A DNA stretch of 33,041 nt from positions 1 through 33,041 of IMG/VR virus record IMGVR_UViG_3300021197_001249. One strand, given 5' to 3'. The stretch's first letter is position 1. Each line of letters starts with the position of its first letter. The position numbers were made by a program, and so were the translations under genes. Under the pieces are notes generated by a model. That model was not told where the DNA came from, ran no database searches, and worked only from the letters and a program-made list of their open reading frames with translations. This DNA comes from a virus. Below are positions 5,760 through 30,665 of the stretch, piece after piece.

Positions 5760-6776
5760 ATGGATTTTTTAAAAGAGATTGTAAAAGAGATTGGAGATGA
5801 CTTTACCAAACTGGCAGCGGACATCGACGAAACCGAAACTTACGTGGACACAGGTTCGTACATCTTTAACGGAGTTGTATCAGGTAGTATATTTGGTGGT
5901 GTATCTGGGAATAAGATTACTGCCATTGCTGGGGAGTCTAGTACTGGAAAAACTTTTTTCAGTCTCGCCGTTGTCAAGAACTTCTTGGATTCTAATCCTG
6001 ATGGGTATTGTCTATATTTTGACACTGAAGCCGCTGTTAATAAGTCTCTACTCGCAAGTCGTGGGATCGATCTGAGTCGTCTTGTTGTAGTGAATGTGGT
6101 TACGGTCGAAGAGTTCCGTAGCAAGGCACTCAAGGCAGTAGACATGTACCTCAAAACGCCTGAGGGGGACCGTAAACCATGTATGTTTGTGTTAGACTCT
6201 TTGGGAATGCTATCCACTGAGAAAGAGATTACTGATGCTCTTAATGAAAAGCAAGTTCGGGACATGACTAAATCGCAACTTATTAAAGGTGCATTTAGGA
6301 TGCTGACTTTAAAACTTGGTCAAGCAAACATTCCTATGATTGTCACTAACCATACTTATGATGTTATTGGTTCTTACGTTCCTACTAAAGAGATGGGTGG
6401 GGGTTCTGGTCTTAAATATGCTGCTTCTACTATCATCTATCTTAGTAAGAAAAAGGAGAAGGATGGGACAGAAGTCATTGGAAATATTATCAAAGCAAAG
6501 ACTGCTAAATCACGTTTAAGTAAGGAGAATAAGACAGTTGAAATACGTCTATATTATGATGAGCGTGGTCTTGATCGATATTATGGTCTTCTTGAACTCG
6601 GTGAGATTGGCGGACTTTGGAAGAACGTTGCTGGTCGATATGAGATGACTGTTGGGGGAGAAACTAAAAAGGTATACGCTAAGGCGATTCTTAAAGATCC
6701 AGAGGTTTACTTTACCTCTGAAGTTATGGAGAAACTTGACGAGATTGCTCGTGAAGAATTTAGTTACGGAACCTGA
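5760..6776 (+). CDS. uvsX: UvsX RecA-like recombinase
   Basis: Strand-exchange ATPase for recombination-dependent replication and repair. The 338-residue protein has Walker A G-E-S-S-T-G-K-T at residues 58-65, and a Walker B-type strand in C-M-F-V-L-D-S-L-G. An I-V-T-N-H-T-Y block and an M-G-G-G-S-G-L-K-Y loop like the RecA L2 region follow. T4 UvsX is 391 aa; the shorter form is normal in cyanophages. It starts three bases after the preceding ORF, continuing the gp43 operon. Confidence 0.95.
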   Translation: MDFLKEIVKEIGDDFTKLAADIDETETYVDTGSYIFNGVVSGSIFGGVSGNKITAIAGESSTGKTFFSLAVVKNFLDSNPDGYCLYFDTEAAVNKSLLASRGIDLSRLVVVNVVTVEEFRSKALKAVDMYLKTPEGDRKPCMFVLDSLGMLSTEKEITDALNEKQVRDMTKSQLIKGAFRMLTLKLGQANIPMIVTNHTYDVIGSYVPTKEMGGGSGLKYAASTIIYLSKKKEKDGTEVIGNIIKAKTAKSRLSKENKTVEIRLYYDERGLDRYYGLLELGEIGGLWKNVAGRYEMTVGGETKKVYAKAILKDPEVYFTSEVMEKLDEIAREEFSYGT

Positions 6777-6797
6777 GAAGATTAACCAACACACATT

Positions 6798-8189
6798 ATG
6801 GACACCATTGAGACCACAATTTTAAAAAATCTTCTGTTCAACGAAGAGTTCTCTAGAAAAGTAATTCCTTTTATTAAGGAAGAATACTTTCAGGAACCCA
6901 CTCAAAAAATTACATATGAAGAAATCACGTCTTTTATTGGGCAGTATAATTCTCAAATTACCGTAGAAGCATTGTTGATTGAAGTATCTAATCGTAGAGA
7001 TTTAAATGATGAGACTTTAAAACAACTTCAAATGTTGATTACCAACTTGGAGGAAAGTCCTGTTGATCAGCAGTGGTTGCTTGATACTACAGAAAAATGG
7101 TGTAGGGATAGGGCAATTTATTTGGCATTGATGGATTCTATTAGTATTGCTGATGGAAATGATGAGATGAAAAGTAGGGATGCAATTCCTAATATACTTA
7201 GTCAAGCATTGGCAGTTTCATTTGACAATAATATTGGTCATGATTATTTTGAAAATGCTGATGAACGATTTGATTTTTATCATCAGAAGCACGATAGAAT
7301 ACCTTTTGACTTAGAATACTTTAATAAGATTACTAAAGGTGGTCTTGTTAGTAAAAGTCTTAATATAGCTCTAGCTGGAACTGGTGTTGGCAAGTCTTTG
7401 TTCATGTGTCATATGGCTAGTTCTTGTCTTCTTGCTGGTAAAAATGTATTGTACATTACTATGGAGATGGCAGAAGAAAAGATTGCTGAGCGCATTGACG
7501 CCAATCTTCTTAATGTGCCAATTCAAGAGATTTCTGAACTTCCTAAGTCAATGTTTGATAACAAAGTTGAGAATCTTGCGAAAAAAACTCAGGGATCTCT
7601 TATAATTAAGGAATACCCAACTGCGAGCGCACATAGTGGACATTTTGAAGCATTGCTTGCAGAACTTGCACTTAAGAAATCATTTAAGCCTGATATTATT
7701 TTCATTGATTACCTTAATATATGTGCTTCCAGCAGGTATCGCGGAAACAGCAATGTCAATTCATATTCATATATCAAATCAATTGCTGAAGAACTTAGAG
7801 GATTGGCTGTCGAAGCAAACGTCCCTATCGTTTCTGCCACGCAGACCACTCGTTCTGGTTATGGTAGCTCTGATGTTGACCTTACTGACACTTCTGAGTC
7901 CTTTGGTCTCCCTGCTACTGCTGATCTTATGTTTGCCCTTATTTCTACAGATGAGCTCGAAGGGCTTGGACAAATTATGGTGAAGCAACTGAAGAATAGG
8001 TACAATGATCCCACAGTCAACAAACGCTTTATTGTTGGGATCGATCGTGCTAAAATGAGATTGTACGATTGTGAACAATCTGCTCAAGAAGATGTTCTTA
8101 ACAATGGGGGAGAGTATGAGTTTGATGATGGAGACTCTGATAAAAAACAAAATAGAAAAGAAAAGTTTGGGACCTTTAAATTTGATTAA
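6798..8189 (+). CDS. 41: replicative DNA helicase gp41 (DnaB-like)
   Basis: Hexameric 5'-3' helicase that partners primase gp61. The 463 residues comprise an N-terminal helical domain (about 1-145) and a RecA-like C-terminal domain. The latter has Walker A A-G-T-G-V-G-K-S (193-200), a Walker B strand P-D-I-I-F-I-D-Y-L-N, an S-A-T-Q-T-T-R motif near 345, and an acidic tail ending K-F-G-T-F-K-F-D. Length is close to T4 gp41 (475 aa). It is the last core replication gene before the accessory glycan cassette, which starts two bases after its stop. Confidence 0.95.
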   Translation: MDTIETTILKNLLFNEEFSRKVIPFIKEEYFQEPTQKITYEEITSFIGQYNSQITVEALLIEVSNRRDLNDETLKQLQMLITNLEESPVDQQWLLDTTEKWCRDRAIYLALMDSISIADGNDEMKSRDAIPNILSQALAVSFDNNIGHDYFENADERFDFYHQKHDRIPFDLEYFNKITKGGLVSKSLNIALAGTGVGKSLFMCHMASSCLLAGKNVLYITMEMAEEKIAERIDANLLNVPIQEISELPKSMFDNKVENLAKKTQGSLIIKEYPTASAHSGHFEALLAELALKKSFKPDIIFIDYLNICASSRYRGNSNVNSYSYIKSIAEELRGLAVEANVPIVSATQTTRSGYGSSDVDLTDTSESFGLPATADLMFALISTDELEGLGQIMVKQLKNRYNDPTVNKRFIVGIDRAKMRLYDCEQSAQEDVLNNGGEYEFDDGDSDKKQNRKEKFGTFKFD

Positions 8190-8190
8190 C

Positions 8191-8742
8191 ATGAAGAACG
8201 TTGGAGCAGATCTGATCGGTGATTTCACTGATATTGATTATCCTGCACGAAGGCAGTTTCCTAGTGATGATATAGTAAATCGATGGAAAAGTATTGGGCA
8301 TAATTATGTCAATTATACTGGTCTTCTTAGGGAAGAGTATCGTGGTGTTCCCGATTGGTGCCATGACATTGTAAGTAAATTTAAGACCAAGCATATACCT
8401 ATTGGAGATAAGTGGTATTTTTTGCAGGATACTTCATTGTCTCTTTATAAGATGCCTCCTGGAACAATCATGCCAGAGCATGAAGATACTTATCCTAGAT
8501 TCCGAGAGATTTATGGTGAATCTAATGTTGATATGATCTGTAGAATTTTAATATTCCTGGATGACTGGAAGACTGGACATTATTTTGAATTGGATAGAGA
8601 ACCTTATGTAAAATGGTCAAAGGGTGATTACCTTTGGTGGCGTGGAGATACTAGTCATCTTGCAGCAAATCTTGGAATTGAAGATAGATATACTATGCAA
8701 ATTACATCAACTTTATCAACATGGAAAAAAGAGATGCAGTAA
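8191..8742 (+). CDS. 2OG-Fe(II) oxygenase-like protein
   Basis: First gene of the accessory cassette. The 183-residue protein shows a P-G-T-I-M-P-E-H-E-D block giving H97-x-D99. This is followed by strands, a G-D-Y-L-W-W-R-G-D-T-S-H block (H156) and an Arg in D-R-Y-T-M-Q-I-T (R166), matching the H-x-D...H...R layout of 2OG oxygenases. The frame is open from 8071 inside gp41, but the ATG at 8191, right after the gp41 stop, gives a protein starting at the expected place. The last 22 bases overlap the sulfotransferase-like gene. Substrate unknown; a hydroxylase acting on the glycan or its carrier is possible. Confidence 0.72.
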   Translation: MKNVGADLIGDFTDIDYPARRQFPSDDIVNRWKSIGHNYVNYTGLLREEYRGVPDWCHDIVSKFKTKHIPIGDKWYFLQDTSLSLYKMPPGTIMPEHEDTYPRFREIYGESNVDMICRILIFLDDWKTGHYFELDREPYVKWSKGDYLWWRGDTSHLAANLGIEDRYTMQITSTLSTWKKEMQ

Positions 8743-9449
8743 TCGATGACCTTGTTGACAACTATGGAGAATATTGTTCTTCTTTTACATTTAACTTTAG
8801 GGATAAATGTGAAGAAGATGACATCCATAAAGAGGGGTTTGTAAATTGCTATTGGAATCCTACTAGCAAATTAGTCTATATGCACATTGATAAGTGTGGT
8901 AGCACGTCAGTTTCAACTGCACTAAGATATTCAAAGATAAAGTTTTTCTCTCTTGAGAAAATGACTCGTAAATATGTTCCTAATGAACTAGCAAAATTCT
9001 TGGTTAAGGATCATATATTTTTTGCAATAACCAGAGATCCAGTTCAAAGATGGATCTCTGGTCTTAATGAATTTATTTGTAGATTTGAACCTGATTTTGA
9101 TTGGGTTGTTGATCAAGTAAAGAATAAGAAATATATATTTGATGAGCATACTGGACCACAAACATCTTTTTTAAAATTGTGTACTGATAATAATGCTAAC
9201 TTGAAGTTGATAAAGTTGGATAGTAAGTTATCTCCAAAAGTTAATTTGTTTATTAAAAAAAATTTATGTAAGGAAGACTTGGAAAGATATGAACCCTTTT
9301 TGATTGATCACTTAAGAAATTCTAAAGACTTCCATCCAAATTATAGACCATTGTGTGCTAAAATATATAAAGATTACATAGAGTCTGACAAAGAAGAGTT
9401 TGACAAACTTTATCGAGGAGATTATGAATTGTACGCAAAAGGTATCTGA
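8721..9449 (+). CDS. sulfotransferase-like protein
   Basis: Probable PAPS-dependent sulfotransferase. The 242-residue protein has the 5'-phosphosulfate loop as H-I-D-K-C-G-S-T-S-V (55-64), preceded by a short beta-strand. The 3'-phosphate-binding block is F-A-I-T-R-D-P-V-Q-R-W-I-S-G (101-114). A later H-T-G-P-Q-T-S-F-L block is typical of the carbohydrate sulfotransferase group. It overlaps the previous gene by 22 bases and the next by 26, so the three are probably co-translated. Sulfation of a sugar in the same cassette is the natural reading; the acceptor cannot be told from sequence. Confidence 0.78.
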   Translation: MEKRDAVIDDLVDNYGEYCSSFTFNFRDKCEEDDIHKEGFVNCYWNPTSKLVYMHIDKCGSTSVSTALRYSKIKFFSLEKMTRKYVPNELAKFLVKDHIFFAITRDPVQRWISGLNEFICRFEPDFDWVVDQVKNKKYIFDEHTGPQTSFLKLCTDNNANLKLIKLDSKLSPKVNLFIKKNLCKEDLERYEPFLIDHLRNSKDFHPNYRPLCAKIYKDYIESDKEEFDKLYRGDYELYAKGI

Positions 9450-10038
9450 CCCCTTTCATGCCGTCGAGAGTTTTGAAGATACGATAGCGAAATTTTATGG
9501 TGCAAAGTATGGAGTTGCTACTGATTGTTGCACCCATGCAATTGAATTGTGTTTGAGGTATGAAGGATACGATAGAATAACATTACCAGAACGTACCTAC
9601 ATCTCTATTCCAATGACCTGCGAGAAGATTGGTCTTGATTGGAGATTTGATAATATTCGGTGGTATGATCAATATCATCTTGGCGGTACTAATATTATTG
9701 ATGGTGCAGTTTTGTGGAGACCAAATTCATATGTCTCTGGAACTTATCTGTGTTTGAGTTTTCAATATCGGAAGCATCTCTCTTTAGGTAGAGGTGGAAT
9801 GATTTTGACCGATGATGAATATGCTGCAGAACAGTTGCGAATGATGGCATATGATGGACGTAAAAAGTATGTTCCTTGGGGTGATCAAGACATTAGTGTG
9901 ATGGGATATCATTATTATATGACTCCAGAGACTGCGAAGATGGGACTTGATGTATTTGAAGAAGTGAAGGATGCATTCCCTCTTGCGATGAGTTATAAGG
10001 ATTATCCACACCTTCCTAATATGGAGATATTTAAATGA
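9424..10038 (+). CDS. truncated DegT/DnrJ/EryC1-type aminotransferase (large domain only)
   Basis: PLP-dependent sugar aminotransferase fold, reduced to 204 residues against the usual 360-400. Visible family blocks are Y-G-V-A-T-D-C-C-T-H-A-I-E-L (PLP phosphate site), L-P-E-R-T-Y-I-S-I-P-M, I-I-D-G-A-V (pyridine Asp, D93), and L-S-F-Q-Y-R-K-H-L-S-L-G-R-G-G-M-I with the Schiff-base Lys at K117. It ends after the M-T-P-E-T-A-K-M-G-L helix, so the small C-terminal domain is missing. ATG 9424 is chosen because CGAGGAG sits at 9414-9420. The retained Lys and Asp suggest catalysis or PLP binding could persist. The stop overlaps the first GT25-like gene. Confidence 0.75.
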   Translation: MNCTQKVSDPFHAVESFEDTIAKFYGAKYGVATDCCTHAIELCLRYEGYDRITLPERTYISIPMTCEKIGLDWRFDNIRWYDQYHLGGTNIIDGAVLWRPNSYVSGTYLCLSFQYRKHLSLGRGGMILTDDEYAAEQLRMMAYDGRKKYVPWGDQDISVMGYHYYMTPETAKMGLDVFEEVKDAFPLAMSYKDYPHLPNMEIFK

Positions 10039-10895
10039 ATAAGTTAAAAGGTCTTCCTCCAATATTTTATTTAAATTTGGATCACAGAACTGATAGAAAA
10101 GAGCACATAGAGAATCAGTTTAAAAAGTGGGATATCACAGACTACACACGTTGGTCGGCATCAACTTTTGATTCAAAAAAAGTTGATCAGTGGGGACAGA
10201 GGTTGGATCAGATGTTACTCGCTCCATCTGATGCATCTATTCTTATGAATGAATGGCATCTATTAATTGAGTGGTACAATTCTGGAATGTCAGAATATTG
10301 TATGGTTGTTCAAGATGATCTATGTTTTGATCTTGTTGAACATTGGCCTTTTAACTGGGAGGATGTTATGAAATCACTTCCATATAATTGGGACATAGTT
10401 CAATTTTATTACTGCCATGATTGGGAATTAATGATGCATCTTCATCCCAGAACTTGGCACAGTTCTTCTGCAGCATGTTTTATGGTAAATAGATTCTTTG
10501 TTGAGAAGTTAATTAAAATTCATGTTAATCCTGATGGAACTATTAGGACAAATCAATCTTTGCATGATTTGGAAGTTCCTAGGGAATCCTATAGTAGCGA
10601 TGATTTTCTTCTTTATCAGATTGCTAAATCTTACACTATTCCACTATTGACTTTAGATCCTAAATTGGCGGTAGCACAGGATAATAATCAATCTAGCAAT
10701 TCAAATGCTGAAGATTATAATCCAGTTATTGCAGTATATCATAATAAGATTTATGATATACTTTCAACTACTTGTACAAAACAGTGGTGGGAAACTCAGA
10801 GTTCTAATTTCACTGCAGATGATATTTTGAGTTGGGGCAAACCTGTTCATAAAAAAATGAAAATGTTATTGCCACAGTACGATAAGATAGGTTAA
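10035..10895 (+). CDS. GT25-like glycosyltransferase, copy 1
   Basis: First of five tandem paralogues resembling glycosyltransferase family 25 (LPS or collagen-type transferases). The 286 residues start with F-Y-L-N-L-D-H-R-T-D-R (11-21), the donor-site signature of the family. They continue with a V-V-Q-D-D metal-site equivalent (91-95), the array-wide P-Y-N-W-D block, and a C-terminal W-W...F-T-A-D-D-I-L-S-W-G-K-P module shared by the set. Both key motifs are kept, with Q-D-D instead of E-D-D, so it may be active. Its ATGA start overlaps the aminotransferase stop. Substrates unknown. Confidence 0.78.
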   Translation: MNKLKGLPPIFYLNLDHRTDRKEHIENQFKKWDITDYTRWSASTFDSKKVDQWGQRLDQMLLAPSDASILMNEWHLLIEWYNSGMSEYCMVVQDDLCFDLVEHWPFNWEDVMKSLPYNWDIVQFYYCHDWELMMHLHPRTWHSSSAACFMVNRFFVEKLIKIHVNPDGTIRTNQSLHDLEVPRESYSSDDFLLYQIAKSYTIPLLTLDPKLAVAQDNNQSSNSNAEDYNPVIAVYHNKIYDILSTTCTKQWWETQSSNFTADDILSWGKPVHKKMKMLLPQYDKIG

Positions 10896-10900
10896 AATAT

Positions 10901-11737
10901 ATGGAATTTAGTGTATCTTCAAAATTGAATGACATGCCCACTATAATATATCGGGCATCTTCTGAAAATCCACCTATAGAGCAAGAACTTTCTTCTTGGG
11001 GAATAACTAACCATAGAAAGCATTGTGACAAGTACAGTCCGCAAAGATATAAAGATTGGAAACATTTGCTTCTTGATAGTGGTTTGATGCAAACTCCTTT
11101 GGAACTATCGTATTCAATTAATATTATTGATGCTATTGTTGATTGGTATGATAATACTGATGATGAGATTTGTATTGTTGCTGATGAAAATGTTACGTTT
11201 AAGAATGCAAAAAATTGGCAATTTGACTGGACTTTTTTAATGCAGCAACTTCCATATAATTGGGATTGTATACAGTTGTTTGTATATTGTTCAGAGTCTC
11301 TGAAGATGCATATGCATCCTTGGATAAAATCTAATATGGGTCAACAGTGTTTTATGATCACTAGATATTTTGCTAAGAGATTAAAACATTTTCACTACAT
11401 AGATGGGAAGTTTAAACTTTATTATGATACTCCAGATAAATCTATACCTATAGATTCTTATGGATCTATAGATACATTTTTTTATGACTTGGGAATTACT
11501 TATACTTTTCCTGTGTTTTCATTAATAAAAAATAGTACTTCATCGTATTTACCTGAGATGTGTTCTGAAGGTATTGATTATTGGTGGGAGGATAAGGCAC
11601 CTTTATATTCTAATTTTGAATTATTTAATTATAATAAGGGTGATGATGAATGGAAAATGGATCAATACTTTGATGTGGATTCATCTAAAAATAAAGTATA
11701 CATGGATGAGAGGAGGCCAAGACTAATATGGATTTGA
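10901..11737 (+). CDS. GT25-like paralogue, copy 2, catalytic motifs lost
   Basis: A 278-residue member of the array by position and shared blocks: L-P-Y-N-W-D-C-I-Q-L, G-S-I-D-T-F-F-Y and a Y-W-W near the C-terminus. The donor signature is replaced (I-I-Y-R-A-S-S-E-N-P in place of N-L-D-x-R-x-D-R). The metal motif reads A-D-E-N (94-97) instead of E-D-D. It is therefore probably not a working transferase on its own, yet the frame is intact and the length preserved. It starts five bases after copy 1 and overlaps copy 3 by ten bases. Confidence 0.68.
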   Translation: MEFSVSSKLNDMPTIIYRASSENPPIEQELSSWGITNHRKHCDKYSPQRYKDWKHLLLDSGLMQTPLELSYSINIIDAIVDWYDNTDDEICIVADENVTFKNAKNWQFDWTFLMQQLPYNWDCIQLFVYCSESLKMHMHPWIKSNMGQQCFMITRYFAKRLKHFHYIDGKFKLYYDTPDKSIPIDSYGSIDTFFYDLGITYTFPVFSLIKNSTSSYLPEMCSEGIDYWWEDKAPLYSNFELFNYNKGDDEWKMDQYFDVDSSKNKVYMDERRPRLIWI

Positions 11738-12630
11738 GTAACAAGTTAGACGGTATGCCAACCGTCAATTATTTTAATCTTGATAATAGAGTTGATCGTA
11801 AAGAATGGATGGTTGGTCAATTTAAAAAGTATGGGATTAAGTATAATAGAGTATCAGGAACGAAATACCTTGCTTCCGAAAATGCTAGATGGAAGCACTT
11901 GATTGCAGATGGTGAAGATTACAAACTGCTTGTACCTATTGCGGCAAATGCAATCACCCATCTTGATTTTTTAAAACGATGGTATTCCGAAACTACTGAA
12001 CCATATGTCCTTCTTATGGAAGATGACTATGATCTTGGATTGATTCCATATTGGCATTTTGATTGGAATTATATGATGGAGCGTATTCCATATGATTGGG
12101 ATTGTATTCATATGGGATATGAAAATCCAGATGGTCTTTTATTTCATCTCCATCCTATCGAGGCTGCTCATGATTTTGGACCAGTTCTTTTAAAAAGAGA
12201 ATATGTTGAAAAGTTGTTGGATCTGCATTGTGTTGGAGAACAGTATAAATTGGTTCATACTGTTGCAGATATTGCTTGGAATCGACAAACGGATGTTGCT
12301 GGATCTGGTACAGTAGACTATTTTATGGTTCACAGTGGAAGAACATATTGTTTACCTTTAATTACTATCAATGCTAATTTTGGTAGTTTTGAAAATAATA
12401 GTATAATTCAAAGATACTATAGACAAGAAGGTGATATAATTGCTAGGAATACGTATTACTATTGGTGGCAGCATGAGAAAAGTAAATTTACTTTAGATGA
12501 CTTTTTTAGTTTTGGTGGTAAAGTGCATGAATCTATGAGATTAAAACCTCAGAAGTTCAGGTCTTATGATTTGACGGGTAAACAATATGAGCAGTATGGA
12601 GAATCCTACCTTGATTATTATAGAAGGTAA
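11728..12630 (+). CDS. GT25-like glycosyltransferase, copy 3
   Basis: A 300-residue copy with full signatures: Y-F-N-L-D-N-R-V-D-R (15-24), L-L-M-E-D-D-Y-D (95-102), I-P-Y-D-W-D-C-I-H-M-G-Y-E, then G-T-V-D-Y-F-M-V-H-S-G-R-T-Y-C. The C-terminal module is Y-Y-Y-W-W...F-T-L-D-D-F-F-S-F-G-G-K. GAGGAGG at 11709-11715 is a strong ribosome site for the ATG. It overlaps copy 2 by ten bases. This copy looks catalytically complete. The C-terminal tail after the module (about 30 residues, Tyr-rich) is longer than in copies 4 and 5. Confidence 0.8.
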   Translation: MDLSNKLDGMPTVNYFNLDNRVDRKEWMVGQFKKYGIKYNRVSGTKYLASENARWKHLIADGEDYKLLVPIAANAITHLDFLKRWYSETTEPYVLLMEDDYDLGLIPYWHFDWNYMMERIPYDWDCIHMGYENPDGLLFHLHPIEAAHDFGPVLLKREYVEKLLDLHCVGEQYKLVHTVADIAWNRQTDVAGSGTVDYFMVHSGRTYCLPLITINANFGSFENNSIIQRYYRQEGDIIARNTYYYWWQHEKSKFTLDDFFSFGGKVHESMRLKPQKFRSYDLTGKQYEQYGESYLDYYRR

Positions 12631-12636
12631 TAAATA
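12629..12636 (+). promoter_or_regulatory. late-promoter-like box inside the glycosyltransferase array
   Basis: AATAAATA, one base off the T4-type late box, overlaps the stop of copy 3 and lies about 25 bases before copy 4. This is the only sizeable gap in the array. Weak evidence, because such AT-rich octamers occur by chance in this genome. Confidence 0.25.
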
Positions 12637-12660
12637 TACTTACGGAGGAAATTGATTATC

Positions 12661-13503
12661 ATGGAATTGAAAGACACGGTAAAGGGGATGCCGAAAGTTT
12701 ATTATTTTAATTCGGAGCAATCTGAAGTTACTAATGAACATATGAAAAGAAACCTAACAAGTTTAGGATTAGAACACCAGAGAATAATTACATCCAACTA
12801 TAATAAAGAAAACGTAAAGCAGTGGGTTGGTAAATTAATTGATGCTAAAAATTATAAACTACCCGTAGTAACTGCTGGATATTCTATATCTGTACTGGAA
12901 TTTTTAAAGCATTGGTATGAAAGTACTGAAGAAGAAACCTTGATTCTTAGTAGAGATACTATTGACTTTGGGATTATAAAATATTGGCCGTTTACTTGGG
13001 ATGAGTTGCGTCAAAAAATTCCTTATGATTGGGATTGTTTCTTGATGGGATTTGAAAGTACAACTCAAATACCATGCTATCTTCATCCAATCATTCCTGG
13101 ACATAATTTTGGAATGGCAGTTCTGAATAGAAGATATGTTAAAAAACTAATAAAACTTCATTGTGTTGGTGATAAGTATAGACTAGTAAACAAGATTGCT
13201 GATAAAAATTTTGGTGGTCAATCTGGAACAGTAGACTATTTTATTGGGCATTGTGGTAAAACATATTGTATGCCATTGTTCCCAACTCATACTGATTTTG
13301 TTAAAAAGAAAACTAAAAAATATGTATTGGCAAAGGCATGTAGGTTGGCATATTATCAGTGGTGGAGAACTGATGAAAGTTTAGAAATTCTTGGTCATTA
13401 TAATAGATATACTATGGATGAATTACTTACTTATGGTAAAGCAAATGATATTGGTATGATAAAAAATATCCCTACAGCTCAATTATTTGCTGTATTTAAA
13501 TGA
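12661..13503 (+). CDS. GT25-like paralogue, copy 4, catalytic motifs lost
   Basis: A 280-residue copy clearly related to copies 3 and 5 (I-P-Y-D-W-D-C-F-L-M-G-F-E, S-G-T-V-D-Y-F-I-G-H-C-G-K-T-Y-C-M-P-L, Q-W-W, M-D-E-L-L-T-Y-G-K). The N-terminal donor signature is replaced by Y-F-N-S-E-Q-S-E-V, and the E-D-D site reads S-R-D-T-I-D (97-102). GGAGG at 12644-12648 precedes both a TTG at 12652 and the preferred ATG at 12661. An AATAAATA late-like box lies at 12629-12636, so expression could restart here. It overlaps copy 5 by ATGA. Confidence 0.7.
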   Translation: MELKDTVKGMPKVYYFNSEQSEVTNEHMKRNLTSLGLEHQRIITSNYNKENVKQWVGKLIDAKNYKLPVVTAGYSISVLEFLKHWYESTEEETLILSRDTIDFGIIKYWPFTWDELRQKIPYDWDCFLMGFESTTQIPCYLHPIIPGHNFGMAVLNRRYVKKLIKLHCVGDKYRLVNKIADKNFGGQSGTVDYFIGHCGKTYCMPLFPTHTDFVKKKTKKYVLAKACRLAYYQWWRTDESLEILGHYNRYTMDELLTYGKANDIGMIKNIPTAQLFAVFK

Positions 13504-14303
13504 ACTTTACCAAAAAGTTGAAGGGATTTCCAACAGTTCGTTATGTTAATTTGGACTGCAGAACTGATCGCCGTGAGTACATGGAGAATCAGTTTGATAT
13601 GATGAAGATAAACTTTCAAAGAGTATCAGCATCCAAGTTTTCTGCATCTACTATGAGTGAATGGGCTTCCGAGTATGTTGATGGTCCTGTTCCCAAAATT
13701 CCATCATATGCTTTAGGCAATTCTTTAACTCATCTTGAAATTATTAAAGAATGGGTCACTAATACATCTGAAGAATATCTTTTATTGATGGAAGATGATT
13801 ATGATTTGACCTTATTTCAATATTGGAATTTTGATTGGGAATATTTAATGAATCGTGTTCCCTACGATTGGGACTGTATTCAACTAGGATATGAATCTGA
13901 TGAGTTCTTGGCATTCTTTTTGCATCCTAAACTTAGGCATACTTACTTTGGTCCAGTTTTGTTGACTAGAGACTATGCTGAGAAGATATTAGAACTTCAT
14001 ACCTCAGGCGATAAGTATTGTTTTGATAAAGTTTTAGGTTCTAAAAAATTTAAAAACTACGGCACAACAGTAGATTACTTTATTGCACATACTGGTAGAA
14101 CTTATTGTATACCTTTAATTACTACAAACGTTGATTCTCCAAGCACCGAGTACGGTATTAATATCTCTAGACCACACCATCAAAAATCTAAGTATGCTTA
14201 TTACTATTGGTGGATGAAAAAACATTTGACATTTACGTTGGATGAATTTTTTACCTATGGTAAACCAAACGATAACAAAATGATAATTAGCACGAGCGGT
14301 TGA
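13500..14303 (+). CDS. GT25-like glycosyltransferase, copy 5
   Basis: A 267-residue copy with complete motifs: Y-V-N-L-D-C-R-T-D-R (15-24), L-L-M-E-D-D-Y-D (95-102), V-P-Y-D-W-D-C-I-Q-L-G-Y-E, T-T-V-D-Y-F-I-A-H-T-G-R-T-Y-C-I-P-L. It ends with Y-Y-Y-W-W...F-T-L-D-E-F-F-T-Y-G-K-P-N-D. It is closest by eye to copies 3 and 4, suggesting recent duplication within the array. The start overlaps the copy 4 stop, and the next gene begins one base after its own stop. Confidence 0.8.
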   Translation: MNFTKKLKGFPTVRYVNLDCRTDRREYMENQFDMMKINFQRVSASKFSASTMSEWASEYVDGPVPKIPSYALGNSLTHLEIIKEWVTNTSEEYLLLMEDDYDLTLFQYWNFDWEYLMNRVPYDWDCIQLGYESDEFLAFFLHPKLRHTYFGPVLLTRDYAEKILELHTSGDKYCFDKVLGSKKFKNYGTTVDYFIAHTGRTYCIPLITTNVDSPSTEYGINISRPHHQKSKYAYYYWWMKKHLTFTLDEFFTYGKPNDNKMIISTSG

Positions 14304-14304
14304 T

Positions 14305-15267
14305 ATGAATTCTACTAATGAATGGGATAAGTTAAAAAAAGTAATAGTTGGCGTTGCTGATCATGCGGTTATTCCTGAGATGGATAAAAGTCTCAGGACT
14401 ATAAATTATGCTGGTGACCAAGATGTATCTTCTGTAAAAGTTGGACCATACCCACAAAAAGTTATTGATGAAGCAAATGAGGATTTGGAAACCTTTTGTG
14501 ATTTTTTGAGGGAAGAAAATGTTGAGGTTTTGAGACCAAAAAGAGAAGTTACAACTTATTATAATTACTGCCCTAGAGATAGTGTTTTTGTTCATGGTGA
14601 CTTTGCTCTAGCAACTCCACAACCACTTAGATCTAGATCTGGTAATTGGAGATCTTTTGGACATCACATTGACTCAGTTTGTGAAGTACCTTGCTCATAT
14701 CATGATGGACTTTACAATGAAGACTGTGTTGGTGATCCCTCTGTATTGGCACTGACCGAGTTAACACCCGCGTTTGATGCTGCAAATTGCATTCGTGCCA
14801 ATGATGAGATATTGTATTTGATATCTAATAGTGGTAATAGGCAGGGTGCAACTCTTCTGCAAGATATGCTGGGCACTCGCGCAACAGTTCGTGTAGTTAA
14901 AGATATATACACCTATGTCCATATTGACACAACTGTGACATTTCTTAGGGAAGGATTGCTAATGGTCAATCCCAATAGAGTGAAGAGTCGGAATGATTTG
15001 CCGTATCCATTTAATACTTGGACAATGATTAGAGCACCAGATCCAATTGACATTGGTTATTATCCAGGATATAATAATGCATCAGAGTGGTGTAATATGA
15101 ATTTGTTCAGCATATCACCAGATCTGGTTGCTCTTGAAGAAAATCAACATCCAACCAGACAAATTTTGGAAACTTATGGCATAGAATGTGCTATGCTTCC
15201 TATGAGGCACCAAAGAACTTTAAGTGGTGGATTTCACTGCGTAACTTTAGATTTGGAGAGAGGATGA
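14305..15267 (+). CDS. glycine-amidinotransferase-like enzyme
   Basis: Member of the amidinotransferase fold (AGAT/inosamine-phosphate amidinotransferase type), which moves an amidino group from arginine to an amine. The 320 residues show N-Y-C-P-R-D-S-V-F-V near 87-96. All three catalytic positions fit the family: D158 in F-D-A-A-N, H206 in Y-V-H-I-D-T-T and C312 in G-G-F-H-C-V-T-L-D-L. Length is a little short of AGAT (about 400 in animals). It lies between GT25-like and sugar-dehydrogenase genes, so a guanidino-sugar or cyclitol is a plausible product. The end overlaps the next gene by ATGA. Confidence 0.85.
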   Translation: MNSTNEWDKLKKVIVGVADHAVIPEMDKSLRTINYAGDQDVSSVKVGPYPQKVIDEANEDLETFCDFLREENVEVLRPKREVTTYYNYCPRDSVFVHGDFALATPQPLRSRSGNWRSFGHHIDSVCEVPCSYHDGLYNEDCVGDPSVLALTELTPAFDAANCIRANDEILYLISNSGNRQGATLLQDMLGTRATVRVVKDIYTYVHIDTTVTFLREGLLMVNPNRVKSRNDLPYPFNTWTMIRAPDPIDIGYYPGYNNASEWCNMNLFSISPDLVALEENQHPTRQILETYGIECAMLPMRHQRTLSGGFHCVTLDLERG

Positions 15268-16592
15268 AAGTAGGAATTATTGGTACAGGTAAATTGGGTG
15301 GTCCTGTTTCTGAAGTATTTGCTGATGCTGGACATGAAGTTTTTGCCTATGATATTGCTGGTGGAAAAAATATATCCTCTGGAAAAACTGAAGGTGGTGG
15401 ATTTAGGAAGTATTACAAAAGCATTAAAACTGTTGTACAAAAATCGTCAATAGTATTTGTTGCAGTCCCTACCCCACATGAAGAAGAGTATGGGGGTAGT
15501 TCTCCCTCTATGCATTTGGAACCAAAAGATTTTGATTATAGTATTGTAAAGAAAGTCTTATCAGAAATTAATCAGTATGCATCTTCACATCAACAGGTAG
15601 TTCTTATTTCTACAGTTCTTCCTGGAACTGTGAGAGAACAATTATTGCCTTTGGTTCAAAATTGTTCTCTTGTTTATAACCCATATCTTATCGCTATGGG
15701 TACTGTTAAAGAGGATTTTAAGAATCCTGAAATGATTATGGTAGGAACTGAGAATGGTCTCACTTTAGGCAGTCCAGAACTTAGGACCTTAATTAAATTT
15801 TATTTGAGTTGTACTGACATTATTAAACCTGGTGTTAATAAAAGTGAAAAAGATCCTCAGTTTTTGAGTAAGTGGGTTCTCGGAACATATGAGGAAGTAG
15901 AATGTATAAAGGTTTTTTATAATACTTTTATAAGTACAAAGATATCTTTTGTTAACATGATACAAGATGTTGCAGAGAGGCAGGGTAATATTGATGTTGA
16001 TATTGTTACCGATGCTTTAACTAGTGCTTCTACTAGGATCATAAGTCCAGCATATATGAAGGCTGGGATGGGTGATGGTGGTGCTTGTCATCCCAGAGAT
16101 AATATTGCCCTCAGATATTTGTCTCAGAAACTTGATCTTGGTTATGATATCTTTGAATCTGTAATGAAATCTAGGGAGCAGCAAGCAAAAAATCTTGCTG
16201 AGTTTTTAGTTAAACTTTCTGATACTTGTAGAACTCCTATCGTTATTCATGGTAAGGCATATAAACCAAAAGTATCTTATGTTGATGGTAGTTATAGTCT
16301 TTTAGTTGGTCATTATATTGAACAACTTGGAGAAAAAGTTAGATATGTTGATCCATATACTGGAGATAAGTGGAGTGGTCCAGCAATCTTTTTACTTGCC
16401 CATAGCGTGAGTACTACTTATAGGTATTGGGAAGATCAAAACACTGGTGATGAAGTATATTGTGACTTCCCATTCGGTAGTGTTATTGTTGATCCATGGA
16501 GAAAGTTTAAAGCACCTAACGATGAACCATTAGAAGTTATTTACTACGGCAATACCAGAGGTAAATCGGAACATGATTCCAAAGGTAAGTAG
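15264..16592 (+). CDS. UDP-glucose/GDP-mannose dehydrogenase-family protein
   Basis: NAD-dependent nucleotide-sugar 6-dehydrogenase-like protein. The 442 residues have an N-terminal Rossmann G-x-G-x-x-G (G-T-G-K-L-G, 7-12), F-V-A-V-P-T-P near 65-71 and S-T-V-L-P-G-T near 116-122. A central helix carries E-V-E-C-I-K (K216) and Y-N (219-220). The catalytic loop is G-M-G-D-G-G-A-C-H-P-R-D with Cys275. The usual G-F-G-G-S-C-F-P-K-D is altered (D-G-G-A and H-P-R), so substrate may differ. A C-terminal I-H-G-K-A-Y-K-P-K domain follows. The frame opens at 15186, but ATG 15264 begins directly at the Rossmann strand and has GGAGAGAGG at 15255-15263. Confidence 0.85.
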   Translation: MKVGIIGTGKLGGPVSEVFADAGHEVFAYDIAGGKNISSGKTEGGGFRKYYKSIKTVVQKSSIVFVAVPTPHEEEYGGSSPSMHLEPKDFDYSIVKKVLSEINQYASSHQQVVLISTVLPGTVREQLLPLVQNCSLVYNPYLIAMGTVKEDFKNPEMIMVGTENGLTLGSPELRTLIKFYLSCTDIIKPGVNKSEKDPQFLSKWVLGTYEEVECIKVFYNTFISTKISFVNMIQDVAERQGNIDVDIVTDALTSASTRIISPAYMKAGMGDGGACHPRDNIALRYLSQKLDLGYDIFESVMKSREQQAKNLAEFLVKLSDTCRTPIVIHGKAYKPKVSYVDGSYSLLVGHYIEQLGEKVRYVDPYTGDKWSGPAIFLLAHSVSTTYRYWEDQNTGDEVYCDFPFGSVIVDPWRKFKAPNDEPLEVIYYGNTRGKSEHDSKGK

Positions 16593-16639: not shown

Positions 16640-17047
16640 ATGTCTAACATTGATACTCAAAAGTACGTTGACTTTGTAAAGGAGACTACTAGTGCTCCTA
16701 GTTTGGATTATCATGTTCTCGCTTCTCGTTTAAGTGAACTAGAAGCAAGTGGTGCTAACGTTACTCAAATGATGACAGCAGCATTTGGACTCTCTGCAGA
16801 AGCAGGTGAGTTTACTGAGGTTGTAAAGAAAATTGTCTTTCAGGGAAAACCATACACTGAAGAAAATATCTTTCATATGAAGCGTGAACTTGGTGACATT
16901 ATGTGGTATCTTGCTCAAGCATGTATGGCTCTTGATATTAGTATTGATGAAGTTATTCAAATGAATTTTGATAAACTTAGTTCTCGTTATCCTGAAGGTT
17001 CTTTTAGTATTGATCGTTCTGAGAATCGTGAGCAAGGAGATGTCTAA
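16640..17047 (+). CDS. mazG: MazG-like nucleotide pyrophosphohydrolase
   Basis: All-alpha NTP pyrophosphohydrolase, frequent in cyanophages. Proposed roles are cleaning of dNTP pools or altering (p)ppGpp; for phage enzymes the favoured substrates are still debated. The 135-residue protein holds the paired metal motifs A-E-A-G-E (E54, E57) and E-L-G-D (E83, D86) and the downstream helix W-Y-L-A-Q-A. The 47-base gap before it is AT-rich without a convincing promoter. Its stop overlaps the ATG of the next gene. Confidence 0.9.
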   Translation: MSNIDTQKYVDFVKETTSAPSLDYHVLASRLSELEASGANVTQMMTAAFGLSAEAGEFTEVVKKIVFQGKPYTEENIFHMKRELGDIMWYLAQACMALDISIDEVIQMNFDKLSSRYPEGSFSIDRSENREQGDV

Positions 17048-17667
17048 TGTTCATTGACTATCAAAATATTTCCAATAAACTTATTTTATTGAATACTTAT
17101 TTTGATAGTATTCAAACTGAATATAGGGATAATTTTAATGGTCTTGAGTTTAGGGATTTTACTGAAGAGCAGGCAAAACATATAAAAGATACTGGGAGTG
17201 GATATCCAATAGGATATGAAAGTTACTTCTCTGGTAAACGTAGAGTGGAGGGTAAGTCTGGATGGCATATCGCTCCACTTTTTGCTGAAAATAATTTATA
17301 TTATTTGAATACACAATTACTACCAGTCCTTACTGAAGTGTTAGCACAAATTGGCATGACTACAGTATGTGCTATTAATGTTTTAGATCCTATGCAATCT
17401 TTGGAATGGCATATTGACAGCGATTATATACCAGGAGTAAAGTTGTATAGAATTATGTGGGGTTTGGAATGTGGCGATCAAAAGTCGGTCATACAGTTGA
17501 AGGATAATCAAGGAAATATTGTTGAGAGAGAATTTAAAGATAAAGAGTTTTATATTTTTCATCCTGAGACAGAACATAGAGTTGAGAATATGATGAACAC
17601 ACCTAGAGCAGTTGTATGTATAGATTATCTTGATAGTACTAAATATAGTGGAACAGCAATTTTATAG
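17047..17667 (+). CDS. aspartyl/asparaginyl beta-hydroxylase-like 2OG oxygenase
   Basis: Fe(II)/2OG hydroxylase fold. The 206-residue protein has S-L-E-W-H-I-D (H122-x-D124), an R-I-M-W-G-L-E strand, then F-H-P-E-T-E-H-R-V-E-N (H177) and P-R-A-V-V-C-I-D-Y (R187). The same ordered blocks appear in the protein at 29967-30665, so the two are likely paralogues. Substrate is unknown; related enzymes act on protein side chains. The ATG overlaps the mazG stop (TAATG). Confidence 0.78.
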   Translation: MFIDYQNISNKLILLNTYFDSIQTEYRDNFNGLEFRDFTEEQAKHIKDTGSGYPIGYESYFSGKRRVEGKSGWHIAPLFAENNLYYLNTQLLPVLTEVLAQIGMTTVCAINVLDPMQSLEWHIDSDYIPGVKLYRIMWGLECGDQKSVIQLKDNQGNIVEREFKDKEFYIFHPETEHRVENMMNTPRAVVCIDYLDSTKYSGTAIL

Positions 17668-29966: not shown

Positions 29967-30665
29967 ATGTTATACCCTTTACCCGATAAAGAATATATCT
30001 ACCATGTAGTCATGGGAAAATTCTTTACAGAAGAAGAAATTAATCCTGCACTTAATTTGCTCAGACTTAATTATGAATTGATTCGTGATGAGTTTAGATC
30101 TGTTAAAGATGGATTGGTTTGGACAAATTGGAATAGTGACAATCAATACACTAGTATAGAGAAAAATCCATACGCAGGTTGGCAAGTTGCTGCTCTTTAT
30201 GGGCAATATGACCCTAATGAAGGTTATGATCATATTGCCAAAGCTGAAGTGGTGTATGATCAGGCATGTTATGCTGATCCAGAGAAAGGAATTATCTATT
30301 CACAAAATGCTGTAAAGATGCCTAACTTGTTTAAGTTGGCATATGAATCTGGTATTTTTAAGAGAGTTGGGATTAGTGTTTTACATCCTGGTAAATCTAT
30401 TCCTTGGCATGTGGATACTGATCCAGAACATCCAGACTATGCTGTTATAAGGGGTCTATGGGGAATAGATGTTAATCCTCAAAATAATGAAGTATGTACT
30501 ATATCGTTAGATACTAAAGATAGTGGAGTTTTAACTGAAGATTTTCTTCCTAATAGATATCATTTCTTTTGGGGAAGAACGCCACATATGGTACACAATA
30601 CTCTTACTACTCCTAGATACTGTTTATGCTTTGATATTGAAGTTAACAGAGATGATCTGCTCTAA
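29967..30665 (+). CDS. aspartyl/asparaginyl beta-hydroxylase-like 2OG oxygenase, second copy
   Basis: A 232-residue Fe(II)/2OG hydroxylase-type protein. It has I-P-W-H-V-D (H148-x-D150), G-L-W-G-I-D, then W-G-R-T-P-H-M-V-H-N (H207) and P-R-Y-C-L-C-F-D-I (R217). The motif spacing and surrounding residues match the protein at 17047-17667, so the two are diverged copies. It is about 25 residues longer, with an N-terminal block not seen there. It follows the tRNA-Arg directly and may be read from the same promoter. Confidence 0.76.
   Translation: MLYPLPDKEYIYHVVMGKFFTEEEINPALNLLRLNYELIRDEFRSVKDGLVWTNWNSDNQYTSIEKNPYAGWQVAALYGQYDPNEGYDHIAKAEVVYDQACYADPEKGIIYSQNAVKMPNLFKLAYESGIFKRVGISVLHPGKSIPWHVDTDPEHPDYAVIRGLWGIDVNPQNNEVCTISLDTKDSGVLTEDFLPNRYHFFWGRTPHMVHNTLTTPRYCLCFDIEVNRDDLL

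Follow-up and report, generated by a model that had tools for sequence, protein, structure and literature searches.

Retained, probable pseudo-glycosyltransferases in a tandem array of GT25-like genes from a cyanophage-type virus

Introduction

Human COLGALT1 (GLT25D1), a member of CAZy family GT25, contains a catalytically dormant GT-A domain, GalT-N, that acts as a scaffold for its complex with LH3 (PMC13382579). In the same protein, R351 touches the loop that binds uridine diphosphate (UDP) and E435-D436-D437 form the metal core (PMC13382579), and D463 is essential (PMC3244457). CEECAM1 (CERCAM) is a retained mammalian GT25 paralog that lacks collagen galactosyltransferase activity (PMC3244457). 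Here we describe a tandem array of five GT25-like genes at positions 10035-14303 of IMG/VR record IMGVR_UViG_3300021197_001249, a viral DNA stretch of 33,041 nucleotides (hereafter, the window). A well-supported reading is that two of these genes, copies 2 and 4, encode retained pseudo-glycosyltransferases: their retention, constraint and loss of residues are observed directly, their fold is predicted, and they are presumably inactive.

The array resembles each of the described systems in part. The GT-A fold of COLGALT1 recurs in the phage proteins, and its NLRRRQDR (347-354), EDD (435-437) and DWD (461-463) motifs align with those of the apparently active phage copies, at marginal sequence similarity (E = 0.64-0.81). 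A non-catalytic GT-A unit serving as a scaffold beside a catalytic one is the arrangement for which we propose a phage counterpart. However, COLGALT1 carries both units in one chain, whereas the phage genes are separate, two of the five copies are dead, and a partnership between them is a proposal. CEECAM1 likewise exemplifies an inactive paralog that has been retained, as the phage copies appear to be, but it has EDD and lacks D461, whereas the degenerate phage copies lack EDD and have a counterpart of DWD; nor does CEECAM1 lie in an array.

Among phages, the cyanophages P-SSM2, S-SM2, S-CAM9 and S-SCSM1 encode members of the same protein family, phrog_2835, and belong to the same phage group. 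Unlike the window, they mostly carry one copy per genome, with EDD kept where examined, and they have no array with two members that are degenerate in both motifs. Closer in gene content is Synechococcus phage S-SCSM2R (PQ898602, 229579-236332), with four family copies alongside DegT, amidinotransferase and 2-oxoglutarate (2OG) oxygenase genes. Its third copy (L083:9174-9863) lacks the N-terminal donor motif and stands beside intact copies, and is thus a degenerate example from a cultured phage. The copy order differs from that of the window, however, and this is another degenerate form, with DD but no N-terminus. We found no description of such an array in the literature, our coverage of which was incomplete.

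Five tandem GT25-like genes

The array comprises the following features.

10035-10895, plus strand: copy 1 (orthogroup G1), GT25-like and intact, with NLDHRTDR and QDD; identified by its motifs and phrog_2835
10901-11737, plus strand: copy 2 (orthogroup G2), GT25-like pseudo-copy without donor and metal motifs, with YRASSENP and DEN at these positions
11728-11737, plus strand: 10-nt overlap of the copy 2 stop with the copy 3 start
11728-12630, plus strand: copy 3 (orthogroup G3), intact, with NLDNRVDR and EDD
12661-13503, plus strand: copy 4 (orthogroup G4), pseudo-copy with NSEQSEVT and RDT; its V-D-Y-F keeps the Asp
13500-14303, plus strand: copy 5 (orthogroup G5), intact, with NLDCRTDR and EDD

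The start of copy 4 at 12661 is an ATG, and a TTG is present at 12652. All five frames are open and full-length, and all match the phrog_2835 'glucosyltransferase' profile over most of their length (E values from 6.7e-24 to 1.4e-43), bearing out a preliminary description of this DNA that had reported five tandem GT25-like genes. Copy 1 is 24-30% identical to copies 2-5. The P-Y-[DN]-W-D and W-W modules, which that description had listed as shared, are indeed seen in every copy, and the Y-x-W-D that copies 2 and 4 still have lines up with D461-W462-D463, which COLGALT1 needs for activity. When an EDD core and N-L-x-x-R-x-D-R are taken as the marks of a catalytic GT25 enzyme, copies 1 (with Q-D-D), 3 and 5 qualify and copies 2 and 4 do not. 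This agrees with the earlier table of motifs, in which copies 1, 3 and 5 were intact and copies 2 and 4 had lost both motifs, except that the R-D-T of copy 4 still includes the first of the two Asp residues.

None of the copies reaches the cut-off (24 bits) of the Pfam GT25 profile (PF01755): copies 1 and 5 score 14 and 20.6 bits, and copies 2-4 are unmatched. Because these matches are weak, below the cut-off and confined to copies 1 and 5, 'GT25-like' is the right label and 'GT25 by profile' is wrong; the family assignment fails at the Pfam cut-off and holds by structure, as described below. Probably active proteins of P-SSM2, S-CAM9 and S-SM2 lack the first donor Arg (R21 in copy 5 numbering) yet have EDD. 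Since the donor motif varies even in such relatives, the metal motif is the better marker, and only the loss of EDD is a good sign of inactivity.

Conservation and history of the array

A scan of viral contigs yielded 80 loci, and arrays were counted among these together with the window. Twenty-two loci have five copies in the order G1 G2 G3 G4 G5 and 18 have six in the order G1 G2 G3 GX G4 G5, where the extra copy, GX, sits between copies 3 and 4. The order is fixed in all 40 of these complete arrays, which belong to uncultured marine viruses of cyanobacteria, and G2 and G4 are open in every one. In a 41st array, L004, copy 2 (6037-6884) is broken by one base missing from a run of A; it is otherwise identical to copy 2 of L003, and the break may be a sequencing error or a fresh one. 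Besides the window, 39 complete loci and L004, all assembled in IMG/VR, repeat this order with the same two copies degenerate, which is more than chance. In a FastTree phylogeny the copies fall into six clean orthologous clades, which marks the array as an old set of paralogs that would have been kept vertically.

The motif states by locus differ between the groups. G1, G3 and G5 keep DD throughout (for G1, in 35/35 distinct sequences), and G4 is degenerate in every locus, including L045, the first branch. G2, by contrast, is graded: L045 has intact motifs (NLDHRLDR/EDD), those of L036-L041 are half-lost (NSDSRPDR/EDL), and the other loci have lost them. An intact GX occurs in L045, L046 and L048-L050 and a nearly intact one in L036-L041; in L027-L034 and L040 GX has lost the donor motif and kept EDD (EDE in two). 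Six-copy loci typically run intact-dead-intact-intact-dead-intact, and the ancestral array probably had six copies. Because 18 relatives have a sixth copy whose motifs are usually intact, and because copy 2 of L045 is intact, the alternation in the window is most simply explained as a by-product of the loss of GX from a six-copy array, with the direction of change suggested by the tree. Alternation as a meaningful pattern, on which the preliminary description had placed weight, is not supported by this comparison. The underlying observation is real and evolutionarily meaningful; 'alternation' overstates it.

More distant arrays show losses of single motifs, in copy 3 of L057 (GDN), in copy 1 of L131-L153 and in copy 3 of S-SCSM2R, whose N-terminus is missing. 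Together with G2, G4 and GX of L027-L034, these cases suggest that catalytic or donor motifs were lost several times independently. L131-L153 form a three-copy lineage in which the donor loop of the first copy is deleted (SCDV--DR or N--HHENR) and EDD is kept. In L027, a gene resembling 2OG-Fe(II) oxygenases is inserted between GX and G4 (L027:9598-10168).

The array was found in no isolate among 50,697 phage records, 97 of which have a family member, mostly as a single copy. When 84,980 genomes were searched for a cellular source, the sole hit was a weak relative on a contig of 6 kb that is filed under a Euryarchaeota metagenome-assembled genome. That contig, L162 (VGTM01000109.1), has two intact family members and may be a misbinned viral contig.

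Purifying selection on the degenerate copies

The ratio of nonsynonymous to synonymous divergence (omega) was determined by the method of Nei and Gojobori (NG86) for 11 phylogenetically independent pairs with a codon bootstrap; a pooled set of 34 pairs was dropped because its pairs were not independent, and synonymous divergence by NG86 is approximate. Omega is 0.039 for G1, 0.067 for G3 and 0.050 for G5, so that the active copies span 0.039-0.067. For the degenerate copies it is 0.144 (0.115-0.165) in G2 and 0.080 (0.064-0.095) in G4. Both are under purifying selection, which on copy 4 is nearly as strong as on an active copy and on copy 2 is clearly weaker.

These values bear on whether the degenerate genes are decaying leftovers of duplication, kept by chance or through translational coupling. 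Such decay would account for the graded loss of motifs in copy 2 from L045 through L036-L041 to the window, for copy 2 being the fastest-evolving member, for the L004 frameshift and for the apparent loss of GX from the window's lineage. On the other hand, both copies are open in 40 of 41 loci despite a minimum identity of about 31% among copy 2 sequences, omega is far below 1, and structural residues are 97-100% kept. We consider decay very unlikely and already largely refuted. The earlier claim that the degenerate copies are not decay products is upheld, their fold also being kept in models. Relaxed selection or breakage is ruled out for copy 4 and largely for copy 2, with the reservations that copy 2 is 2-4 times less constrained than the active copies and is broken in L004. 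Assembly artefact, chance alternation and simple decay were each rejected as main explanations.

Residues lost and kept

Residues are numbered as in copy 5; a constant offset of 27 in the COLGALT1 alignment brings EDD to 435-437 and DWD to 461-463, as published. In this alignment COLGALT1 R351 is the counterpart of R21, and its metal core E435-D436-D437 that of E98-D99-D100. D100 (COLGALT1 D437), the second Asp of the metal motif, is gone from 30/30 G4 and 31/33 G2 sequences, and the donor Arg R21 from 30/30 and 30/33, respectively. E98 is replaced by R or K in 30/30 G4 sequences and is still acidic in 33/33 of G2. Conversely, every G2 and G4 sequence has D125, the counterpart of COLGALT1 D463; G4 also retains D192, which most of G2 has lost. 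The residues W85, F111, W113, P121, W124, R157, Y202, P205 and W238 are 97-100% kept in both groups. The remaining motif positions of the degenerate copies vary freely, and the N-terminal donor region is variable among G4 sequences.

The uniform substitution at E98 raises the possibility that the degenerate copies are transferases with an altered, metal-independent donor site, in which the R or K of copy 4 replaces the charge of Mn2+. In some GT-A enzymes (for example, GT14) basic residues stand in for the metal. The retention of D99, D102, D125 and D192 in 30/30 G4 sequences and an omega near that of the active copies would fit such an enzyme. However, one would expect selection to conserve a newly formed donor site, whereas the donor motif of G4 is both lost and variable, and copy 2 has no comparable fixed substitution. 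We regard this explanation as quite unlikely.

Predicted structures

AlphaFold2 models copy 2 of the window with a predicted local distance difference test score (pLDDT) of 88.2 and a predicted template modelling score (pTM) of 0.87. In Foldseek searches of PDB its best match is mimivirus R655 (9crz, E = 1.6e-6, query-normalised template modelling score (TMq) of 0.47), followed by COLGALT1 (E = 2.7e-5) and other GT-A enzymes; R655 and the giant-virus GT25 proteins provide the best structural match at only about 12% identity. In BFVD, copy 2 matches largely GT25 proteins (E of about 1e-11, TMq 0.57). For a model of copies 3 and 4 the best PDB match is COLGALT1 (E = 4.4e-11), and the beta-1,4-galactosyltransferase 8xlz gives a target-normalised score (TMt) of 0.60. 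Query-normalised scores of the PDB matches are below 0.5. The models therefore predict a preserved GT-A fold for both degenerate copies; in copy 2 and the 3+4 model this fold is closest to solved GT25 enzymes. The combination that marks a candidate pseudoenzyme, catalytic residues lost with a predicted fold kept under purifying selection, is found in copies 2 and 4 alike.

A kept fold could also serve a protein that acts alone. The degenerate copies might bind glycans or nucleotides, as lectin-like GT-A domains directed at sugar chains of the host surface or virion, having kept the acceptor cleft and lost the donor site. Retention of Y-x-W-D, W-W and the V-D-Y-F Asp of copy 4 while donor and metal residues vary is in keeping with this proposal, as is a further Foldseek match to the vaccinia envelope protein H3, which has the fold of a glycosyltransferase (5ej0, E = 4.2e-4). 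Yet no new conserved surface motif was mapped, the group-specific invariant residues number only two in G4 and four in G2, and the tight linkage among transferase genes suggests joint work. Independent binding is, in our judgement, unlikely.

A proposed partner-subunit mechanism

Copies 1, 3 and 5 would be active metal-dependent transferases. Copies 2 and 4, which appear to keep the GT-A fold and have lost the metal and nucleotide-sugar residues, very probably do not transfer sugar in the way usual for the family; they might instead be non-catalytic subunits that lend dimer surfaces or acceptor-binding clefts to active copies of the same operon. We favour this mechanism, giving it about an even chance of being correct, because of the linkage of the genes, the fixed junction between copies 2 and 3 and the precedent of the dormant COLGALT1 domain. 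A more elaborate version, in which five or six paralogs form a machine whose separately encoded dead copies bind stably to active ones and determine their specificity for acceptor or linkage, is put forward tentatively, as possible rather than probable.

At the junction, the overlap of copies 2 and 3 is exactly 10 nt, at the same position, in 42/42 loci. An overlap so invariant might mean that the degenerate genes act mainly in cis, on translational coupling or dosage, and only secondarily through their protein. Purifying selection on amino acids along the gene and a fold kept in the models speak against this, and make it extremely improbable.

Several observations weigh against partner subunits. 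The 10-nt overlap may be frozen simply through coding for two proteins. The nonsynonymous evolution of copy 2, 2-4 times faster than that of active copies, indicates less constraint than expected of a tight subunit, and strongly conserved columns number 44 in copy 2, as compared with 96-123. The intact copy 2 of L045, in a similar array, indicates that the array does not strictly depend on a dead copy 2, and the L004 array has its frameshift in the same gene. Finally, an interface was sought by reading copies 3 and 4 through the two intervening stop codons as one fusion chain. Both halves fold in the AlphaFold2 model (mean pLDDT 75.8) with an undefined relative arrangement (pTM 0.51) and no confident interface, a weak negative from a shallow alignment of 26 rows, seven of which cover copy 3.

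The surrounding cassette

The array is flanked by the following genes.

8071-8742, plus strand: probable 2OG-Fe(II) oxygenase, by resemblance and without a Pfam match; its place is conserved in relatives
8721-9449, plus strand: sulfotransferase (Pfam PF03567)
9400-10038, plus strand: short DegT-type aminotransferase (Pfam PF01041)
14305-15267, plus strand: amidinotransferase-like, 65.6% identical to an S-SCSM2R protein annotated as inosamine amidinotransferase
15261-16592, plus strand: dehydrogenase of the UDP-glucose/GDP-mannose type

Wherever the contig reaches, the flanks are constant: gp41 helicase, 2OG oxygenase, sulfotransferase, DegT, array, amidinotransferase and dehydrogenase. Judging from these neighbours, the cassette probably builds a sulfated, amino- or guanidino-modified sugar and attaches it either to the surface of the host or to one of the virion proteins. 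The pairing of amidinotransferase and DegT recalls aminocyclitol and guanidino-sugar pathways, and S-SCSM2R is the only phage isolate with a close amidinotransferase. The DegT aminotransferase has only 212 amino acids, and its divergence in relatives is untracked by that of its neighbours, as if it had been swapped between phages; this gene-to-gene rate covariation covers six loci only and is uninformative.

The window as a whole represents 33 kb of a T4-like virus, with genes for RegA, gp43, UvsX, a gp41-type helicase and ribonucleotide reductase. Its DNA polymerase shares 80.5% identity with the S-SKS1 (Synechococcus phage) enzyme, so that the virus is, by sequence, of the cyanophage type. 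Three further genes resembling 2OG oxygenases or Asp/Asn hydroxylases lie at 44-667, 17047-17667 and 29967-30665.

Implications

Should the dead copies prove to be subunits, this small operon would document the repeated origin of pseudo-glycosyltransferases in a phage, through steps that are known. The series formed by copy 2 of L045 (intact and ancestor-like), of L036-L041 (half-lost) and of the window (lost) would then make the transition from enzyme to partner directly testable. The number of glycosyltransferase copies in a phage, moreover, would then be an unsafe guide to the number of sugars added.

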